Virus record (IMG/VR): IMGVR_UViG_3300048010_000237
Coordinates: 1-31,570 of that record
Source: a virus
Length of the DNA: 31,570 bases
Direction: 5' to 3' (one strand)
The notes beneath the pieces were generated by a model. The model saw only the letters and a program-made list of their open reading frames with translations. It did not search any database and was not told the DNA's origin. Of the stretch, positions 1 to 25,855 are shown one piece after another (the first letter of the stretch is position 1; every line of letters begins with the position of its first letter). The position numbers and the translations under genes were made by a program.

Positions 1-2161
1 CGACAGCGGTGTTTCTTTCACCTAATGTGTTTGCTTCAAGTGCATTATAGCCAAATGCAGTGTTATCTGATGCGGTGGTGTTGCTAGCCAAAGCACCCCT
101 ACCAACACCTGTATTACCATCTCCAGTGGTGTTTTCACCTAAAGCAACATACCCAACTGCTGTATTTGTGGTGCCAGTGGTGTTAGAATAAAGTGCTTGA
201 TAGCCAATTGCCGTCATGCTGTGACCAGTGGTGGAGGCCTCACCTGCTTTATAACCCATAGCGGTGTTGTTGTTGCCTGTATAGGCTTCTAAAGCCTGAG
301 AACCGACAGCAGTGTTGCCTACTCCTGTAATATTTGAGGCAATTGCAAGATAGCCTATACCAGTGTTGTTGGAGGCAGTTGTTTGTGCGCCAAGAGCAGA
401 CACACCCATTGCCACATTGTTTCCACCTGTCGTGTTTGCATCCGCAGCGTTTAAGCCAACAGCGGTGTTACTGTTTCCGGTAGTGTTTGCCCCAAGTGCA
501 TTTGCACCTACGCCCGTGTTCCATATGGCTGTCGTGTTTGCATCTAAAGCAGATTGTCCAACTGCGGTGTTCTGATAACCAGTAGAATTTGAGGTAAGAG
601 CCTGATATCCAACAGCAGTGTTGTTATCACCTGTGGTATTCGTGCCTAAAGCCCCTCGTCCAACAGCCACGCCATTGTTGCCTGTCGTGTTGTTTGTCAG
701 AGCTACATATCCAACTGCTACAAGGCTGCTGCCGGTGGTGTTGTCGTAACCAGCCTGATAACCTACGGCTGTATTGTTGCCTGCGGTGGTGTTACTCTCA
801 AGTGCCTGATGACCAAGTGCTGTATTATTACTGCCTGTTGTGTAACGCAGTGCATAGTTACCCGCTGCTACATTTTTTGTGCCAGTGATATTGCTAAATA
901 AAGCATTACTACCAAAAGCCACATTGTCACTAGCTGTGGTGTTGCTGGATAGTGCTGAATTACCAAAAGCGTTATTGCGTGTGCCAGTGGTGTTTGCATC
1001 TAACGAGTATACACCCACTGCTGTGTTGTTAGATGCGGTGGTGTTTGAAGTTAAAGATTGAAAACCTACGGCGACATTGTTTGAGCCATCGGTGTTTGCC
1101 TCAAGAGCCTCTCCACCAACAGCCACGTTTTGTGCGCCAATGGTATTATTTTCCAAAGAAAAAATACCAAAAGCAGAGTTATTACCACCAGTAGTATTTG
1201 CCCCTAAAGAATGAACACCTACGGCTGTGTTTTTCTCGCCTGTGGTGTTAGCGTCCATTGAACGATAACCCATTGCCGTATTTTCTTGACCAGTAGTGTT
1301 GGACAACAAGGCTTCATAGCCAACAGCCGTACCAGTTCCGCCAGTAGTATTGCTAGAAAGGGCTGAATAACCTACTGCGGTTATGTTGTTTGTGGCGTTT
1401 ACTTTTAGCGCATCTTTACCTACAGCCGTGTTGTTACTCGTTGTGGTATTATCACGAAGTGCGCCTGTTCCAATACCGGTGTTATTGCTGCCAGTTGTGT
1501 TTGAAGACAACGCAACCCTACCTACACCAGTATTTTGGTCGCCCGTAGTGTTTGCAGTTAAAGCATTTGACCCAATAGCGGTATTTTCATCACCGCCAGT
1601 TTGAACACTGTCAAGAGCAGTATCACCCAACGCCACGTTGTTTGCCCCTGTCGGATAGTTACCGTCCAGTTTAATCGTGCCACCGTCAGAAGTAATGCCG
1701 CCCATCTGAACCTGCGACAGAACCTGCGTTACAGTAGCGGAAGCCCCGCCGCCGTCGAACTTCAAAAGAACATCGTGGCCGTTTTCAATCTCAAAATCAT
1801 TAGAAGCATTGTAAGTACCCTGAAATACAATCAGGTTACGTGAGCCAGACAAGCTGTTGCGGATGTGCACGACTTTTTCAGCATCATTGGGGTCAAGCTG
1901 AACATATGCCGTTGCGCCAAGATCCGCGCCGTCATTAAACTCAATAAAGCGATTGCGCCCGTCAGATAGAGCGCCGTTGTTAATTAGCAGGGTGTTAGGT
2001 GAGCCCGAAGTACCCGCAGCGGCTAGCGTGACAGTGGCAATACCATTAGTCGCTTGGTCAATAATGTCGAAGTTAGTGTTAGTCGTTACACCCCATGTGC
2101 CCGACTGATCGCCGGTCCCCGGCTTCTCAATGCCAATATTGACTGTATATGTACTTGCCAT
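1..2161 (-). CDS. Repeat-rich tail fibre / receptor-binding protein (C-terminus off window)
   Basis: The minus-strand frame is open from an ATG at 2161 to the left edge, giving 720 codons with no stop in the parts translated. The first ~165 residues are a non-repetitive head (MASTYTVNIG...), the likely virion-attachment part. From about position 1670 leftward there are some 32 tandem 17-residue repeats of the form NTAVGxxALxxNTTGxx. This resembles the left-handed beta-roll repeats of YadA/Hia-like trimeric adhesins and of phage fibres. I infer a trimeric fibre that spaces a C-terminal receptor-binding tip from the virion. It is the last gene of the structural cluster, 12 bp after another repeat protein. 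The tip and any chaperone domain lie outside the window. Confidence 0.8.
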   Translation of the reverse strand, partial: MASTYTVNIGIEKPGTGDQSGTWGVTTNTNFDIIDQATNGIATVTLAAAGTSGSPNTLLINNGALSDGRNRFIEFNDGADLGATAYVQLDPNDAEKVVHIRNSLSGSRNLIVFQGTYNASNDFEIENGHDVLLKFDGGGASATVTQVLSQVQMGGITSDGGTIKLDGNYPTGANNVALGDTALDSVQTGGDENTAIGSNALTANTTGDQNTGVGRVALSSNTTGSNNTGIGTGALRDNTTTSNNTAVGKDALKVNATNNITAVGYSALSSNTTGGTGTAVGYEALLSNTTGQENTAMGYRSMDANTTGEKNTAVGVHSLGANTTGGNNSAFGIFSLENNTIGAQNVAVGGEALEANTDGSNNVAVGFQSLTSNTTASNNTAVGVYSLDANTTGTRNNAFGNSALSSNTTASDNVAFGSNALFSNITGTKNVAAGNYALRYTTGSNNTALGHQALESNTTAGNNTAVGYQAGYDNTTGSSLVAVGYVALTNNTTGNNGVAVGRGALGTNTTGDNNTAVGYQALTSNSTGYQNTAVGQSALDANTTAIWNTGVGANALGANTTGNSNTAVGLNAADANTTGGNNVAMGVSALGAQTTASNNTGIGYLAIASNITGVGNTAVGSQALEAYTGNNNTAMGYKAGEASTTGHSMTAIGYQALYSNTTGTTNTAVGYVALGENTTGDGNTGVGRGALASNTTASDNTAFGYNALEANTLGERNTAV

Positions 2162-12439: not shown

Positions 12440-12629
12440 TGCTTCGCTCCTGTTTTTCTAGCAGGCCCTTGAGTTCCTGTTCCACGTGATCCAGAGATTT
12501 TAAATTTCCCATGAGCTCACGATACTGCTCGATGTTCTTGACGTTGTCATAAATTAACAAGTCTTGAACTGCCCTCCGCCGCTCTTTGATAATCCGAAAA
12601 GCGGCTTCGGCAAAATATATTTCATCCAC
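12432..12629 (-). CDS. Small helical protein, unknown
   Basis: 65 aa, helical and charged (FRIIKERRRAVQDLLIYDNV, DHVEQELKGLLEKQERS), likely a coiled-coil. It lies between the lysozyme and GroES genes. Its 3' end overlaps the GroES start by 8 bp and a GGAGA ribosome binding site precedes the ATG. It has no known domain that I recognise. A role in assembly or lysis cannot be told apart from the sequence. Confidence 0.65.
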   Translation of the reverse strand: MDEIYFAEAAFRIIKERRRAVQDLLIYDNVKNIEQYRELMGNLKSLDHVEQELKGLLEKQERSND

Positions 12630-17964: not shown

Positions 17965-18993
17965 TCAATAATACCCCGAACGACTGGTCTGGAAGAACCC
18001 CTGCTCATTGCGCGGGAAATACACGTCAAGGCCACCTTCCGGAGACCTGAATGAGCGTTCTCCCGGTTCGCGGCCCAAGATCCTGTCCAATTGCTCAAAT
18101 AATTTACTATCCACCATCTTAGCTAACTGCTGCGGGGTAGCATTAACACCTGCCTCCCTCAACAACTTCACGCCAAACGCATTGTTGCGCTTGTCCATAG
18201 CCACATCTTCAGGAGTAGCATTACCAATAAGCGGTATAGGCAAAGCGTCTATACCCTCCGCGAAATTTCCTAATTTAATCGCGGTCTCCGGGCCAAACTG
18301 CCTTGCCATCTCAGCAGACATAAGCGCATGAGCCCGCGCATCTTCTAACTCCTGAAACGTCGGCATATCATGCCGTGGCCGCTGGTTACGAATGTCTTCG
18401 GGGGCATCACTAAACTCACGTGGAACCTCCGCATACCCATACTTTTGCTCCAACATCTGTTCAAATGTCGGGGCCCCTTCAGGATAATATGTCTGTGAAC
18501 CCTCGCTGCTCTCTCTTCCAGAGGTGCGAACAAGATTCTGAGCCTCCGCGTTTGGCGCGTTATACAAAGCAGACAAAATGCCCGCTTCCTCAATGGCCGG
18601 GTTTCCGCCTTCCTGCATATAAAGTTCCGGGGCCCCTTTGTAACCACGAAGATCCGTGGGCCGCGAACTGAAATCCGGGGTGGACTGCCGCGTCAACGGC
18701 TCAGCCATACCCTCATACGGCGAATAGCGGGGCACATCTTGTTCAAAATACTGGCCTGCCATGCCTCGACTACGAGCGTCAGACCCTAAATCAACGCGAT
18801 AACCCTCTTCATCAATAAAAGGCCGCGCTTCGTCGTCTACAAAATAATAGGCTTCGCCCGTCTCAGAGTAAGAGGGCCGTGTGCGGCGGGAAATCTCTAC
18901 CGGGTCGTTGGTCCCGTATAACGCCTCGTCCATCGACATATTACCAAAATCGGTAAAACCGCCCGCCCCAAGATTTACCGCAGAATCCGCCAT
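17965..18993 (-). CDS. Hypothetical protein between terminase and portal
   Basis: 342 aa, acidic, Pro/Tyr/Arg-rich and probably partly disordered in residues 1-200 (SRRTRPSYSETGEAYYFVDD, TYYPEGAPTFEQMLEQKYGY). A more compact helical C-terminal half follows (FQELEDARAHALMSAEMARQ, NNAFGVKLLREAGVNATPQQ, VDSKLFEQLDRILGREPGE). No catalytic motif. It shares one base with the terminase stop (TAATG). The position suggests a virion or packaging accessory protein; unnamed proteins in this slot are common in marine phages. The 85 bp to the portal start hold only the portal ribosome binding site. Confidence 0.65.
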   Translation of the reverse strand: MADSAVNLGAGGFTDFGNMSMDEALYGTNDPVEISRRTRPSYSETGEAYYFVDDEARPFIDEEGYRVDLGSDARSRGMAGQYFEQDVPRYSPYEGMAEPLTRQSTPDFSSRPTDLRGYKGAPELYMQEGGNPAIEEAGILSALYNAPNAEAQNLVRTSGRESSEGSQTYYPEGAPTFEQMLEQKYGYAEVPREFSDAPEDIRNQRPRHDMPTFQELEDARAHALMSAEMARQFGPETAIKLGNFAEGIDALPIPLIGNATPEDVAMDKRNNAFGVKLLREAGVNATPQQLAKMVDSKLFEQLDRILGREPGERSFRSPEGGLDVYFPRNEQGFFQTSRSGYY

Positions 18994-20438
18994 TAGTAAT
19001 ACGCCCTAACCCTTACATTTGTGTCCTCGTCATCCCAATCGTCACTGGGCAACTGAACAAAGTTACCTTGCCGGTAGCGCATCAAAGCCTGTGTCATACT
19101 ATCAACCAAGTCATCGTGCTCCCCGTTTGGAAACGCCGCCACCTCCTCAATCATCTCATCGGCAAAGACGGTGTCGGGGGCCCAAACCATACCAGCCTCA
19201 AACAAAGGCGATACAGAGTGAACTCGTGTTATCTTATCATTTCCTTTGCTTGGCGTAAAGTTAACAACGGGGATGCCCATGTTTCTTAATTCCTGCGTCA
19301 AAGGCAGACCAGAGGCCTTGGCTTCCACAATTACTGTGTCGGGTTCCCAATACTTATATTGCTCCAAAGCCATGTTTTTTAATTCAGGAAAATCCCACCG
19401 GTCCTTTTGGCTGTCCAAAAGTATGAGTCCCGGAGGGCCCCCAACCTCCTCTGGACGAAATACGCCCCACGTGGTTATCGCGCTAAAGTCAGCCGTCTCG
19501 CGTTTACTAAATGCCGTATCATAACTCTGAATGACATATTCAAGATTTGGAATCTTGTCTTTCTCCCAGCGCCTCCACCATTGACGTGGGATGATCGCGT
19601 TCTCTTCGCCCGTCGGATTCTGCTGATACTGCGCGTTCCACTTGCTGGGCGGGATAGATGCTTTGACCGCGGTCAGGTCTTCGATTGACCAAAACTCAGG
19701 CCAGCACGGGACGCCATCATCAAAAATCGCAGGAAGTTCCACAACTTCCCATTGGTCCGCTAGGGGGTCTTTAGCCATCGCCTTCAAAAGCTGGCCCGTC
19801 ATATCCTTTTCTGACCACCGGGTCTGGACCAAAACAATCGACCCACCCGGCTGGAGCCTCTGTCGGGGGCCCCCAGTGTACCAATCCCAAGCATCGTCAA
19901 ACCCGTTCGCAGACATCGCCGTCTGTTCCGAATGCGGGTCATCAATGATTACCAAGTCGCCACCACGACCCGCGAGGTTTGATCCAACACCAACGGCATA
20001 GTACATCCCGCCAGCAGAAGTGTCCCAACGACCAGAAGCTTTACTGTCAGCAGCCAATTTAACATTCGGAAACACCTCCTTAAATTCATCACTATCCAAA
20101 AGATTTTTTGTCTTACGGCCAAAGTTGACCGCAAGCTCTGTCGTGTGCGTCGCCTGAATAATCTTCATCCGCGGGTTCTTGCCCATCATCCAAGCAGGAA
20201 ACAGGAAGGATGCGAACTCTGACTTCGTGTGACGCGGGGCCATGTTGATGATAAGTCGCTTTAGGTCGCCTTTTGCAACCCTTTCTAACTTTTCGGCAAT
20301 AATTTTATGATGACGACCGGCAATAAATTCCGGCCACATAGATTTTACAAAAGTCAAAAATTCTTTCTGACAAGCTTCATTCTTCTCGATTTGCGCGAGT
20401 CGCAGGCGAAGCTTTAACTCCTGATCTGAAACATCCAT
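18993..20438 (-). CDS. terL: Terminase large subunit
   Basis: 481 aa. The ATPase domain has a variant Walker A (MAPRHTKS, residues 66-73), Walker B with catalytic acid (DLVIIDDP, 162-168) and a coupling motif near VLVQTRWSEKD (202-212). The C-terminal RNase H-like nuclease has acidic residues at D307 (QSYDTAFS), E372 (VIVEAKASG) and D442/D443 (NGEHDDLVDS). It cuts concatemers and drives DNA into the head through the portal. AGGGG ribosome binding site. It is separated from its small subunit by ~4.4 kb. Confidence 0.95.
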   Translation of the reverse strand: MDVSDQELKLRLRLAQIEKNEACQKEFLTFVKSMWPEFIAGRHHKIIAEKLERVAKGDLKRLIINMAPRHTKSEFASFLFPAWMMGKNPRMKIIQATHTTELAVNFGRKTKNLLDSDEFKEVFPNVKLAADSKASGRWDTSAGGMYYAVGVGSNLAGRGGDLVIIDDPHSEQTAMSANGFDDAWDWYTGGPRQRLQPGGSIVLVQTRWSEKDMTGQLLKAMAKDPLADQWEVVELPAIFDDGVPCWPEFWSIEDLTAVKASIPPSKWNAQYQQNPTGEENAIIPRQWWRRWEKDKIPNLEYVIQSYDTAFSKRETADFSAITTWGVFRPEEVGGPPGLILLDSQKDRWDFPELKNMALEQYKYWEPDTVIVEAKASGLPLTQELRNMGIPVVNFTPSKGNDKITRVHSVSPLFEAGMVWAPDTVFADEMIEEVAAFPNGEHDDLVDSMTQALMRYRQGNFVQLPSDDWDDEDTNVRVRAYY

Positions 20439-20934
20439 CGGGGGCCCCTAAAGTTGCACATATTACAGGCATAAATATGCACACTTTTTAGTCAGTTAAC
20501 AAGTCCCATCTAATTGCACAAAAAATAGGCAATGTTTCACGTGAAACATTCATATCATTTTTCACATGATTATTTGAGAAAAACATGGCCCTTGCCTGCG
20601 CAGCCAGAGCCCGTGGCCGCGTTGCGCGATTTTTGGTAAATGATTGATTTATCACGGTTTTTGACCCGATACCGGAATCCTAGTTTTTAAGGCCGCCGCC
20701 CGCGTTTCGACGCCCGCCGCCCGCGTATCATGCGCCGCGCTATTCGCCCCGCGTTGCCCGTGCCGCGTTCCGCCGCCCGTGAAAATTTTTAAAAATACCG
20801 ACGCCCGCGCCCCGCGTTTTTTGGATTGCGCCCCGCCGTGATTTTTCCGCCGTATGTTTTACGCAATCCCCGCCCCGCCGCCCGCGGCATGATTAACTCT
20901 AATAAACGCCCTAGGAAGCCCGACAAGCGGGCAT
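20439..20934. other. Gene-free regulatory region upstream of terL
   Basis: About 500 bp with no plausible ORF. The terL-proximal part (20439-20590) is AT-rich, with three TTGCACA-like words (on either side of 20460-20520) and the parS site. From 20590 to 20900 it becomes GC-rich on a C-rich plus strand, with repeated GCCCGC/CGCCCG words. A promoter for terL must lie here; TGTAATAT near 20463-20470 (minus) is the best -10 candidate. It may also hold packaging signals, which cannot be recognised by eye. Confidence 0.6.
20531..20550. promoter_or_regulatory. parS-like ParB binding site (perfect 20-bp palindrome)
   Basis: AATGTTTCACGTGAAACATT is a perfect palindrome whose central 16 bp (20533-20548) equal the chromosomal parS consensus TGTTtCACGTGaAACA bound by ParB. 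A weaker half-match (TTTTTCACATGATTAT, 20558-20573) lies 10 bp away. No ParA or ParB gene is present in the window, so the host ParB is the likely ligand. Confidence 0.8.
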
Positions 20935-20968
20935 AAAAAAACCCCGCTAGGGTTATAGCCTAGCGGGG
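20935..20968 (-). terminator. Rho-independent terminator after the 82-aa gene
   Basis: Perfect 10-bp stem (CCCCGCTAGG at 20942-20951, CCTAGCGGGG at 20959-20968) with a 7-nt loop. On the minus strand it is followed by seven T (20941-20935). It lies 32 bp past the stop of the gene ending at 21001. Confidence 0.92.
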
Positions 20969-21000
20969 CGTTGCGGGCGTTGTATGGGGCTTAAATCGCC

Positions 21001-24559: not shown

Positions 24560-25022
24560 TAGGACTTATCAAGTCAAAAATAGTTTCCCACTGAAAAGGC
24601 TGTTCACAACGGAAAATTGGCTCGACCGCTTCAAGCCCGTCCATCTTTAAATCGACCGCCGCATTAGCGGGATACAAAAAGCATTCGGCGGGTTCTGTCG
24701 GCTTGGTTTGTTTCTTAATCAATATCCAGCAACTGGCATGGCTATGCCGCGACAGCCACGCGACTTGCGACGGTTGCAGGGTGACGGCGTTGCCCGTTAA
24801 AAATTTTAGTTCGACAAAATGAAAGTCGCCTTTTTCATCGCAGATCATCAGGTCAGGAATACCCGCCCCGACCCAGTTCTCAATCCGCGTCAGCAGAAAT
24901 TTCCTGTTCGACCTCTGCGCGGCTTCCTTCACTTGCTTGTAAAAGCCTGCCTCTCGCTTTGTTGCGATTGCTGGTATTTTCGTCTTTTTCTGTCGGGGTG
25001 ACGTCGATGGTGATCGGGGCAT
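24555..25022 (-). CDS. VRR-NUC-type PD-(D/E)xK nuclease
   Basis: 155 aa. ENWVGAGIPDLMICDEKG followed by DFHFVELKFLTGN shows the PD...ExK core with D57, E71 and K73; E24 and Q83/Q86 complete the usual VRR-NUC pattern. These nucleases act on branched or flapped DNA (resolvase-like) or serve phage recombination and packaging. The first ~47 codons overlap, out of frame, the 3' end of the small terminase gene (143 bp). The ribosome binding site GAGGAG is inside terS. It ends at the promoter of the next operon. Confidence 0.75.
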   Translation of the reverse strand: MPRSPSTSPRQKKTKIPAIATKREAGFYKQVKEAAQRSNRKFLLTRIENWVGAGIPDLMICDEKGDFHFVELKFLTGNAVTLQPSQVAWLSRHSHASCWILIKKQTKPTEPAECFLYPANAAVDLKMDGLEAVEPIFRCEQPFQWETIFDLISPI

Positions 25023-25500
25023 AACTATTTTTTATCTCCTCAAGTGCTTTCAGGACATCCTCTTTGCTCATGCTGTCGATTGACCCATGACGGATTTCCG
25101 ATTTGCTGACATAGATGTCGCCTTGCGCTTGCCCCCTGCGATACTCAGCCTGAACGGCGGCAGAATAAGCCCCGTTTTCCAACGCCATATCCCGTATGGT
25201 CTGTAAATCTCTAAGATGACGCTGATAGGTCACCCCGTATTTTTCATCCAGTTCCCGCCGATACGCCTTTATCGCCGCGACGACATGAGGCGACATATGC
25301 GGGTTGGTAAGTTCATAAGCCCGTGAGTGCGCCGACCCTGCGGCATAGCCCGCGTTTATCGCGGCTTCTCTCAAAGTTATCTGCCCGTCTTTGCTTACCA
25401 GTTCTTTTACAAAAAGTTCCTGCTTGCGTGTCAGGGCTTGCTCCGCAGTGGCCTTCTTTCGACCCCGCGTCTCAGTCTTTACTACAGATTTTCTCGCCAT
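24880..25500 (-). CDS. terS: Terminase small subunit
   Basis: 206 aa from the ATG at 25500 (GGA 6 nt upstream); a GTG at 25542 is less likely. A basic start is followed by the terminase-2-like DNA-binding region TRKQELFVKELVSKDGQITL, REAAINAGYAAGSAHSRAYE with TNPHMSPHVVAAIKAYRREL. A helical oligomerisation part (RDLQTIRDMALENGAYSAAV, QAEYRRGQAQGDIYVSKSEI) and a polar C-terminal tail follow. It recognises the packaging site and recruits TerL, which lies 4.4 kb downstream. Confidence 0.85.
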   Translation of the reverse strand: MARKSVVKTETRGRKKATAEQALTRKQELFVKELVSKDGQITLREAAINAGYAAGSAHSRAYELTNPHMSPHVVAAIKAYRRELDEKYGVTYQRHLRDLQTIRDMALENGAYSAAVQAEYRRGQAQGDIYVSKSEIRHGSIDSMSKEDVLKALEEIKNSYAPITIDVTPTEKDENTSNRNKARGRLLQASEGSRAEVEQEISADAD

Positions 25501-25855
25501 AATCTTTCCACAGTTAAAAAGGTCTACTTGTCTCTTTAACACAATTTACACCTATATAGGCTGAAAAACAAAAAATATTTTTTTTTGATTTTGGGCGCAT
25601 TAAGGCAGTTTTGCTATTTAACTCTGTTACATTTTAGTAATTATTGGTGTAACACTTTATGTAACAGAAAAAACCTTTGTATTAAAACAACTTAACTACG
25701 ATGTTACATTTGTTACACCTGTTACACCTATTTTTTAACTTTTTTTATTTTTTATAATTTTGAGCCTATATAGGTGTATCGCGTAACAACGCCTTTGAAG
25801 AGGAGTATTCGTTCTCTGGGTTTTGAGCCGTGATCCGCGGACTTATCTTCGCGCT
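25501..25855. other. AT-rich iteron region, candidate origin or control region
   Basis: 355 bp with no plausible gene. It contains six copies of TGTTACA(C/T) or its complement. Three are in tandem at a 9-bp period (25702-25709, 25711-25718, 25720-25727); the others are at 25625-25632 (same strand) and 25647-25654 and 25659-25666 (opposite strand). Long A/T tracts flank them. The block lies between two palindromes CCTATATAGG (25551-25560, 25765-25774) whose surroundings form a ~16-bp inverted repeat. This layout fits a replication origin or a regulator-bound control region. Confidence 0.6.

Follow-up and report, generated by a model that had tools for sequence, protein, structure and literature searches.

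A chromosomal-type parS site upstream of a phage terminase gene and its exact counterparts in other phages

Why would a marine phage genome without a visible ParB gene carry a perfect copy of the parS site of bacterial chromosomes? The question is raised by the virus record IMGVR_UViG_3300048010_000237 of the IMG/VR database, a stretch of 31,570 bases (49% GC) that was analyzed over its whole length and is called the window here. A perfect 20-bp palindrome, AATGTTTCACGTGAAACATT, is located at positions 20531 to 20550, as claimed in a first-pass annotation made from the sequence alone. Its core at positions 20533 to 20548, to which no strand is assigned, reads TGTTTCACGTGAAACA, the form given for the chromosomal parS consensus (PMC10197239), and is an exact match to the 16-bp consensus TGTTNCACGTGNAACA. 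The earlier expectation of about 7e-6 occurrences for a given 16-mer is correct for this length (31570/4^16). The exact site is present in a single copy; the next best matches, at 12478 and 25711, have two mismatches, and allowing up to three gives an unremarkable total (4 matches versus a shuffled mean of 1.44, with 6 of 100 shuffles reaching 4).

The site and its neighborhood in the window

Open reading frames (ORFs) run open-ended into both termini of the window, which is therefore a fragment; for comparison, the genomes of the cultured relatives HTVC027P and DSL-LC04 measure 57.6 and 61.5 kb, respectively. TerL was the sole criterion applied for kinship with HTVC023P and HTVC027P, and by this criterion the window phage is related to both: its TerL shares 61.7% identity with the protein of Pelagibacter phage HTVC027P and 53.6% with that of HTVC023P (over the whole TerL in both cases), as well as 58.9% with that of DSL-LC04. 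The window is probably a piece of an HTVC023P-type podovirus genome. Portal, GroES-like, endolysin, head, and DNA polymerase genes were also recognized, along with a terS-like small terminase gene on the minus strand (24880 to 25542; phrog_51, E 1.8e-12); no tRNA was found in the window. Just upstream of the terS-like gene, TGTTACA/TGTAACA repeats in direct and inverted orientation (25625 to 25726) look operator-like or origin-like, and a long open-ended ORF on the minus strand at the other end of the window (2 to 2161), tail fibre-like as judged from its sequence, contains degenerate NNTA-type repeats. HTVC027P, which is described as obligately lytic (PMC12753301), has a GroES gene like the window phage but, unlike it, lacks an exact parS; a scan of 20 kb of its genome revealed a single one-mismatch site, which lies near terS in the gap between convergent genes. 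A whole-record count for DSL-LC04 gave zero exact sites.

The parS site begins 110 bp upstream of the start codon of terL (18993 to 20438, minus strand; phrog_38, E 2.7e-109), which encodes the large terminase subunit of 481 amino acids and is the first gene downstream of parS. On its other side, the site is flanked by a predicted intrinsic terminator on the minus strand (20941 to 20969), consisting of an 11-bp stem and a T run. No ORF of 60 or more amino acids exists between 20439 and 21000, in the stretch that had been described as gene-free. Because the terminator would stop upstream transcription, terL probably has its own start, and it is probably transcribed from its own promoter. A sigma70-like candidate is located on the minus strand at 20474 to 20502, 30 bp downstream of parS, with a -35 element TTGTTA (20497 to 20502), a 17-bp spacer, and a -10 element CATATT (20474 to 20479). 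A strict consensus promoter scanner missed this candidate (0 found), and the assignment rests on conservation: TTGTTMACTG and CATA, separated by a 17-bp spacer, are kept in all 16 near relatives. Among the 14 near relatives with both parS and the promoter, the distance from parS to the -35 element is 29 to 31 bp in 11, 7 bp in L142, and 74 bp in L129 and L130.

Further short elements surround the site. A conserved element, CAAATAATNATGTGAAAAA / CAAATAATCATGTGAAAAA, is located just upstream of parS (20558 to 20576, minus strand) and occurs once in the window when as many as three mismatches are allowed (0.06 expected). The degenerate parS half-site that had been noted 10 bp from the palindrome turned out to be part of this element. 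Because the element persists in two relatives that lack parS (L133 and L134) and drifts from the parS sequence in others, the half-site is not parS-like, and its interpretation as a second parS was rejected. On the terL side of parS, the alignment reveals a degenerate copy of the palindrome TGCCTAATNATTAGGCA (20515 to 20531, minus strand; at most two mismatches), a possible operator; the palindrome comes after parS in many near relatives. Another palindrome, GGGGCCCC, is found just upstream of the terL ATG (20441 to 20448), where near relatives have a similar GGGNCCCC in the alignment. A role of the parS palindrome itself as an RNA hairpin was rejected (z of -1.1 for the fold of 101 nt), the terminator-like site being instead the one described above.

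Conservation and movement among terminase relatives

For the selection test, we used 80 IMG/VR loci, the best 80 of the TerL matches listed, which were chosen by TerL similarity alone and amounted to 515,033 counted bases. They contain 49 exact copies of TGTTNCACGTGNAACA, distributed over 40 of the 80 loci, plus three copies with one mismatch and none with two. Four control palindromes of the same construction gave no copy at up to one mismatch in the same loci and three two-mismatch copies altogether. Chance, judged unlikely in the first-pass annotation, was rejected on these counts and on those of the other control palindromes. At the two free positions, the 49 exact copies have either T..A (39 copies) or C..G (10 copies) and nothing else, so the palindrome is preserved. 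A mixed form, C..A, exists in one clade record outside the 80 loci (that of L192). Several relatives have one T..A form and one C..G form 23 to 24 bp apart, in either order.

When the window was aligned with 16 near relatives, 14 of these and the window itself were seen to carry the site, and among the carriers none of the 16 parS columns varies, whereas only 59 of 243 other columns are invariant. In L133 and L134, parS is missing together with the palindrome that elsewhere comes after it, while both flanks are intact, which indicates deletion and not scrambling. The absence or scrambling in close relatives that had been named as evidence against a functional site is therefore seen in part: the site is deleted in two of 16, whereas every base is kept wherever it is present. 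A broader set of 87 terL-selected rows was obtained by dropping TerL matches shorter than 380 residues or below 45% identity as well as identical TerLs, and by adding the window, HTVC027P, DSL-LC04, and loci from metagenome-assembled genomes (MAGs). In this set, 33 rows have a site (at most one mismatch) in the 400 bp preceding terL and 7 have it elsewhere in the available stretch, while 40 are siteless even though their upstream sequence extends over 400 bp or more, and 7 are too short to judge. Likewise, among seven IMG/VR clade records longer than 45 kb, four have the exact site, one has a one-mismatch site, and two (L171 and L175) have none. From the siteless rows and these two records it follows that parS is dispensable. 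Judged by these sequence comparisons, the site is a chromosomal-type parS under selection.

Is the site tied to terL? The parS 16-mer matched at least 120 IMG/VR stretches, versus 1 for the reversed palindrome, and 37 of the 120 listed were assigned by hand to the wider clade of the window on the basis of TerL, portal, major capsid protein, GroES, TerS, or polymerase similarity. Within the clade, parS is placed upstream of terL, upstream of a portal or GroES gene, right after a stop codon, or within an ORF. The same parS-promoter module occurs about 1.06 kb upstream of terL in L135 to L138; in L136 (identical with L045), it is followed by a gene for a TerS homolog, which is the first gene behind parS, then by a VRR-nuclease gene and terL, and L135, L137, and L138 have sequence similar to that of L136 in the TerS region. 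In the subclade of the window, parS and the packaging-operon promoter thus move together. Under a crude gene model, genes are avoided by 27 of the 42 sites in the clade, including that of the window, compared with 10% of random positions, and 15 lie inside ORFs. The corresponding values are 19 of 28 sites for named phages (18% background; the named loci were picked around sites) and 41 of 105 for other stretches (10% background).

In a TerL tree built from 101 rows, some of which were brought in by parS itself, the label of a site upstream of terL needs at least 14 changes when rows too short to judge are excluded; when these are counted as lacking the site, at least 8 of the label changes fall on starred branches. 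Loci L002 to L121 were selected for parS, and no prevalence was drawn from them. The site has been repeatedly lost, gained, or moved and is found at nonhomologous places. The link to terL and packaging drawn in the first-pass annotation is weakened: in the subclade of the window, parS sits beside the packaging-operon promoter, which favors regulation there, but the link is not a general explanation, because other relatives and unrelated phages have the site elsewhere; for the same reason, a strictly terL- or packaging-linked role was rejected as a general account. In a distant phage group with a TerL about 28% identical to that of the window, five exact parS sites are found within about 0.8 to 0.9 kb near a terL homolog (L017:2657-3444 and L044:10535-11462), and L053 and L075 have three and two sites, respectively.

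Exact sites in other phages, ParB genes, and likely hosts

A search of 50,697 phage records yielded 315 matches (A/T flanks) or 297 matches (T/A flanks), counts that include near-identical records, RefSeq/GenBank duplicates, 16-mers displaced by a base or two, and “Listeria phage LM ...” and “Enterococcus phage Efs ...” pieces that are possibly host contigs; two control palindromes gave 0. Several unannotated records of the “Listeria phage LM ...” kind, OR846756 and OR848404 among them, contain as many as about five parS sites each and are possible host contigs, so that counts in the phage collection call for caution. From the matches, 16 named carriers were chosen for variety, of which 15 are titled complete genomes and one, B103, “genomic sequence.” Whole-record counts of exact sites are 3 for Ruegeria phage DSS3P8 and 2 for DSS3_MAL1 (MAL1); 3 for Lactobacillus phage Lpa804; 1 each for Listeria phage A511, Arthrobacter phage Huntingdon, Microbacterium phage KaiHaiDragon, and Enterococcus phage CUB-FM; 2 each for Bacillus phage B103, Gordonia phage Woes, and Glutamicibacter phage Voltaire; 3 each for Chedec 11 and Butyrivibrio phage Arian; and 4 for vB_BcoS-136. 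The inovirus bajarodino 3 has six exact sites spread along its genome of 6,183 bases (L229:704-5936), and the microviruses Spiroplasma phage 4 (SpV4) and phi-CA82, with genomes of 4.4 to 5.5 kb, have one each (L233:693-708 and L237:3904-3919). The control palindrome was absent from every whole-record count (the 16 carriers, HTVC027P, and DSL-LC04).

Some of the carriers are lytic (A511 and the phi29-like phages). No phages of named enterobacterial, Pseudomonas, or Vibrio hosts were present among the matches listed (60 rows per listing, in which records repeat and many hosts are unnamed). Enterobacterales are not known to have a chromosomal ParABS system. Mycobacterium, whose members possess ParB, was not among the ten leading organism names of the matches, about 20 names falling outside these tallies.

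In all five multisite phages larger than 60 kb that were examined, the sites are close together: 4 sites in 1.0 kb of 160.6 kb in vB_BcoS-136 and 3 sites in 6.8 of 142.6 kb in Lpa804, which are the clearest clusters, 3 sites in 5.8 of 146.1 kb in DSS3P8, 2 sites in 2.5 of 149.6 kb in MAL1, and 2 sites in 0.4 of 73.8 kb in Woes. No clustering was seen in B103, Chedec 11, or Arian. When nine multisite phages were treated as circular, with the inovirus outside the test, the combined Fisher p value was 9e-10. Both Woes sites and one DSS3P8 pair have common flanks, DSS3P8 and MAL1 share site flanks and so are probably kin, and the Voltaire sites are only 19 bp apart; hence, local duplication or kinship may explain part of the clustering. 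Without Woes, DSS3P8, MAL1, and Voltaire, the p value is 1e-5, and it rises to 0.10 when vB_BcoS-136 is removed as well. The signal rests mainly on vB_BcoS-136 and is weaker evidence than it first appears. Within vB_BcoS-136, the flank scores of two of the six site pairs barely exceed the 95% null, and one of these pairs consists of neighbors 36 bp apart with overlapping flanks. In Woes, both sites are centered in longer perfect palindromes (L226:2071-2106 and L226:2495-2524, extended by 10 and 7 bp per side, respectively) within a partly duplicated context.

If these phages use parS, where does ParB come from? The ParB_N domain (PF02195) was absent from all 18 clade records of a first set, which mixed records carrying parS with records lacking it and included the whole HTVC027P and DSL-LC04 genomes and otherwise mostly fragments. 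Likewise, it was found in none of 37 hand-picked, mostly fragmentary clade records that carry parS, two of which are common to both sets. In positive controls, the search detected ParB_N in 11 of 14 and 10 of 14 control genomes, and among the 16 named carriers, one (KaiHaiDragon) has the domain. Within this mostly fragmentary material, the earlier statement that no ParB is visible is upheld, and a phage-borne ParB, as in a ParABS cassette of the P1/N15 type, was rejected on the same PF02195 results, with the window and most records being fragments. Tyrosine integrase (PF00589), our criterion for a temperate phage, was found in none of the 18 records, most of which are fragments.

The MAG bins that contain relatives of the window phage belong to Rhodobacteraceae, Maricaulis, Rhodobiaceae, Verrucomicrobia, and other groups; these phyla contradict each other, and viral binning is unreliable. 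We sampled the family of a Rhodobacteraceae-titled MAG into which one relative had been binned. The parS consensus is present in 56 of 61 genomes of this family (control, 0), with exactly two copies in 42 genomes, one in 10, and three to five in 4, and the listed pairs are mostly about 1.9 kb apart. The phage site thus matches the parS consensus on the chromosomes of a candidate host family.

Possible roles of a phage-borne parS

The occurrence of parS in many unrelated phages suggests, at the level of sequence, that phages borrow the chromosome-sorting machinery of their hosts. Positioning, condensation, segregation, or protection of phage DNA, timing of packaging, and titration of ParB had been put forward as candidate uses in the first-pass annotation, whose interpretation is supported in part. 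As the best explanation for the window, to which we assign a probability of roughly 0.47, the phage parS would act in cis as a site at which host ParB is loaded and through which host ParA and possibly SMC would position or separate phage DNA (“centromere mimicry”). After injection, host ParB would recognize the site, load as CTP-gated clamps, and slide onto the adjoining phage DNA; host ParA, and perhaps SMC, would then treat the ParB-coated DNA like an origin region, with the outcome that phage DNA is positioned, spread, or separated during infection. The phage would contribute only the 16-bp site, and the work would be done by host proteins. In Caulobacter, ParB is reported to cover about 10 kb at its native sites and to spread from parS at any location; a plasmid-borne strong parS is reported to lower viability about 1,000-fold, which the authors attribute to segregation of the plasmids instead of the chromosome (PMC5815017). 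Since HTVC027P is characterized as strictly lytic (PMC12753301), inheritance at cell division would be no obvious gain. We infer that host ParB binds the site and that the benefit would lie in positioning or segregation rather than in regulating genes or damaging the host. That such mimicry is widespread and largely unnoticed, with unrelated phage groups, lytic ones included, having repeatedly taken the host parS so that ParB, ParA, and SMC position, separate, or shield their DNA, seems to us marginally better than an even bet.

Parts of this picture have precedents. P1 and N15 encode their own ParA and ParB with their own parS sequences; these phage-plasmid partition cassettes likewise place parS on phage DNA, whereas no ParB was found in the clade of the window. 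The sites described here have the same 16 bp as the chromosomal parS of ParABS systems (Caulobacter, Bacillus subtilis, and Rhodobacteraceae) but differ from it in being phage-borne, often in one copy; a bacterial origin is absent, and searches in cis revealed no ParB gene. The closest parallel is SGI1, which carries mimics of the parS of the IncC plasmid and is stabilized by the ParABS system of that plasmid (PMC10954446). It is a parasitic element bearing a site for the ParB of another replicon, as the window phage may be; the ParB in that case is plasmid-borne and the element is integrative, whereas here the presumed ParB is chromosomal and the carriers are phages. The phage tubulin PhuZ centers phage DNA during infection, by means of a phage protein rather than a DNA site only (PMC4244570). 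The parS sequence element and its mimicry by a parasite (SGI1) were already known; new are its wide distribution among phage groups, its occurrence in phages for which searches revealed no ParB gene, and the evidence for selection. A literature search of open-licence PMC papers, with bioRxiv outside its scope, yielded no recognizable report of a natural chromosomal-type parS in phages among the papers listed, and a report elsewhere is possible.

If ParB does bind, many phage groups would exploit the chromosome-segregation machinery by means of 16 bp of DNA, with hardly any coding cost. Binding would open tests of phage DNA positioning in ParABS hosts and of ParB and SMC as pro-phage factors, and it would become testable whether bacteria use a foreign parS as an infection signal. 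Engineered lambda carrying parS has been visualized with fluorescent ParB (PMC13190303), and a natural parS might let unmodified phage genomes be watched via a fluorescent fusion of the host ParB.

The main rival for the window is that parS acts as an operator: host ParB sliding from parS over the promoter 30 bp away would repress or delay the packaging operon until ParB is diluted by the many phage copies, so that packaging follows replication. KorB, a plasmid-encoded member of the ParB family with its own operator, offers a likeness. Its sliding clamp silences promoters at a distance on RK2 (PMC11790492), and in Pseudomonas aeruginosa ParB is reported to repress genes adjoining parS3 and parS4 (PMC5521831). 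The spacing of 29 to 31 bp between parS and the conserved promoter in 11 of the 14 near relatives with both, the recurrence of the module in L135 to L138, and the terminator that insulates the operon in the window all agree with an operator, but L133 and L134 have the promoter without parS, and elsewhere the site is found after stop codons, within ORFs, and beside other genes with no common regulated gene seen. An operator function is thus strongest within the subclade and weakest across phages, and we consider it unlikely overall. Both functions may apply: a cis-acting ParB site gained for DNA handling may later have been recruited at the late promoter.

The phage copies might instead serve as decoys that titrate ParB or ParA off the few chromosomal parS sites and stall host segregation or division to the benefit of the phage. 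Since 42 of the 61 genomes in the sampled family have exactly two chromosomal consensus sites, a handful of phage genomes would be enough to exceed that number; some phages have 3 to 6 sites, and the roughly 1,000-fold loss of Caulobacter viability with a plasmid-borne strong parS (PMC5815017) also fits a decoy. A decoy would be expected to form arrays, whereas the 49 sites over 40 site-bearing loci amount to one or two each (in partial genomes), and lytic phages kill the host regardless; we therefore regard sabotage of the host as quite improbable. Under convergence, the palindrome would bind a phage-encoded protein and resemble parS by coincidence. Further conserved palindromes upstream of terL show that phage regulators may act there, but the identical 16-mer recurs in tailed phages of many hosts, in an inovirus, and in microviruses, for which host ParB would be the common factor, and we give convergence very little credence. 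Chance or host contamination is of negligible probability. Host contigs may be present in IMG/VR and among some phage records, such as the “Listeria phage LM ...” pieces; however, controls gave only 0 to 1 matches, nearly all named carriers are titled complete genomes, and the clade sites adjoin terL or other phage genes. For the clade of the window, chance and contamination are ruled out by the counts in the terL-selected loci together with these phage-gene neighbors.
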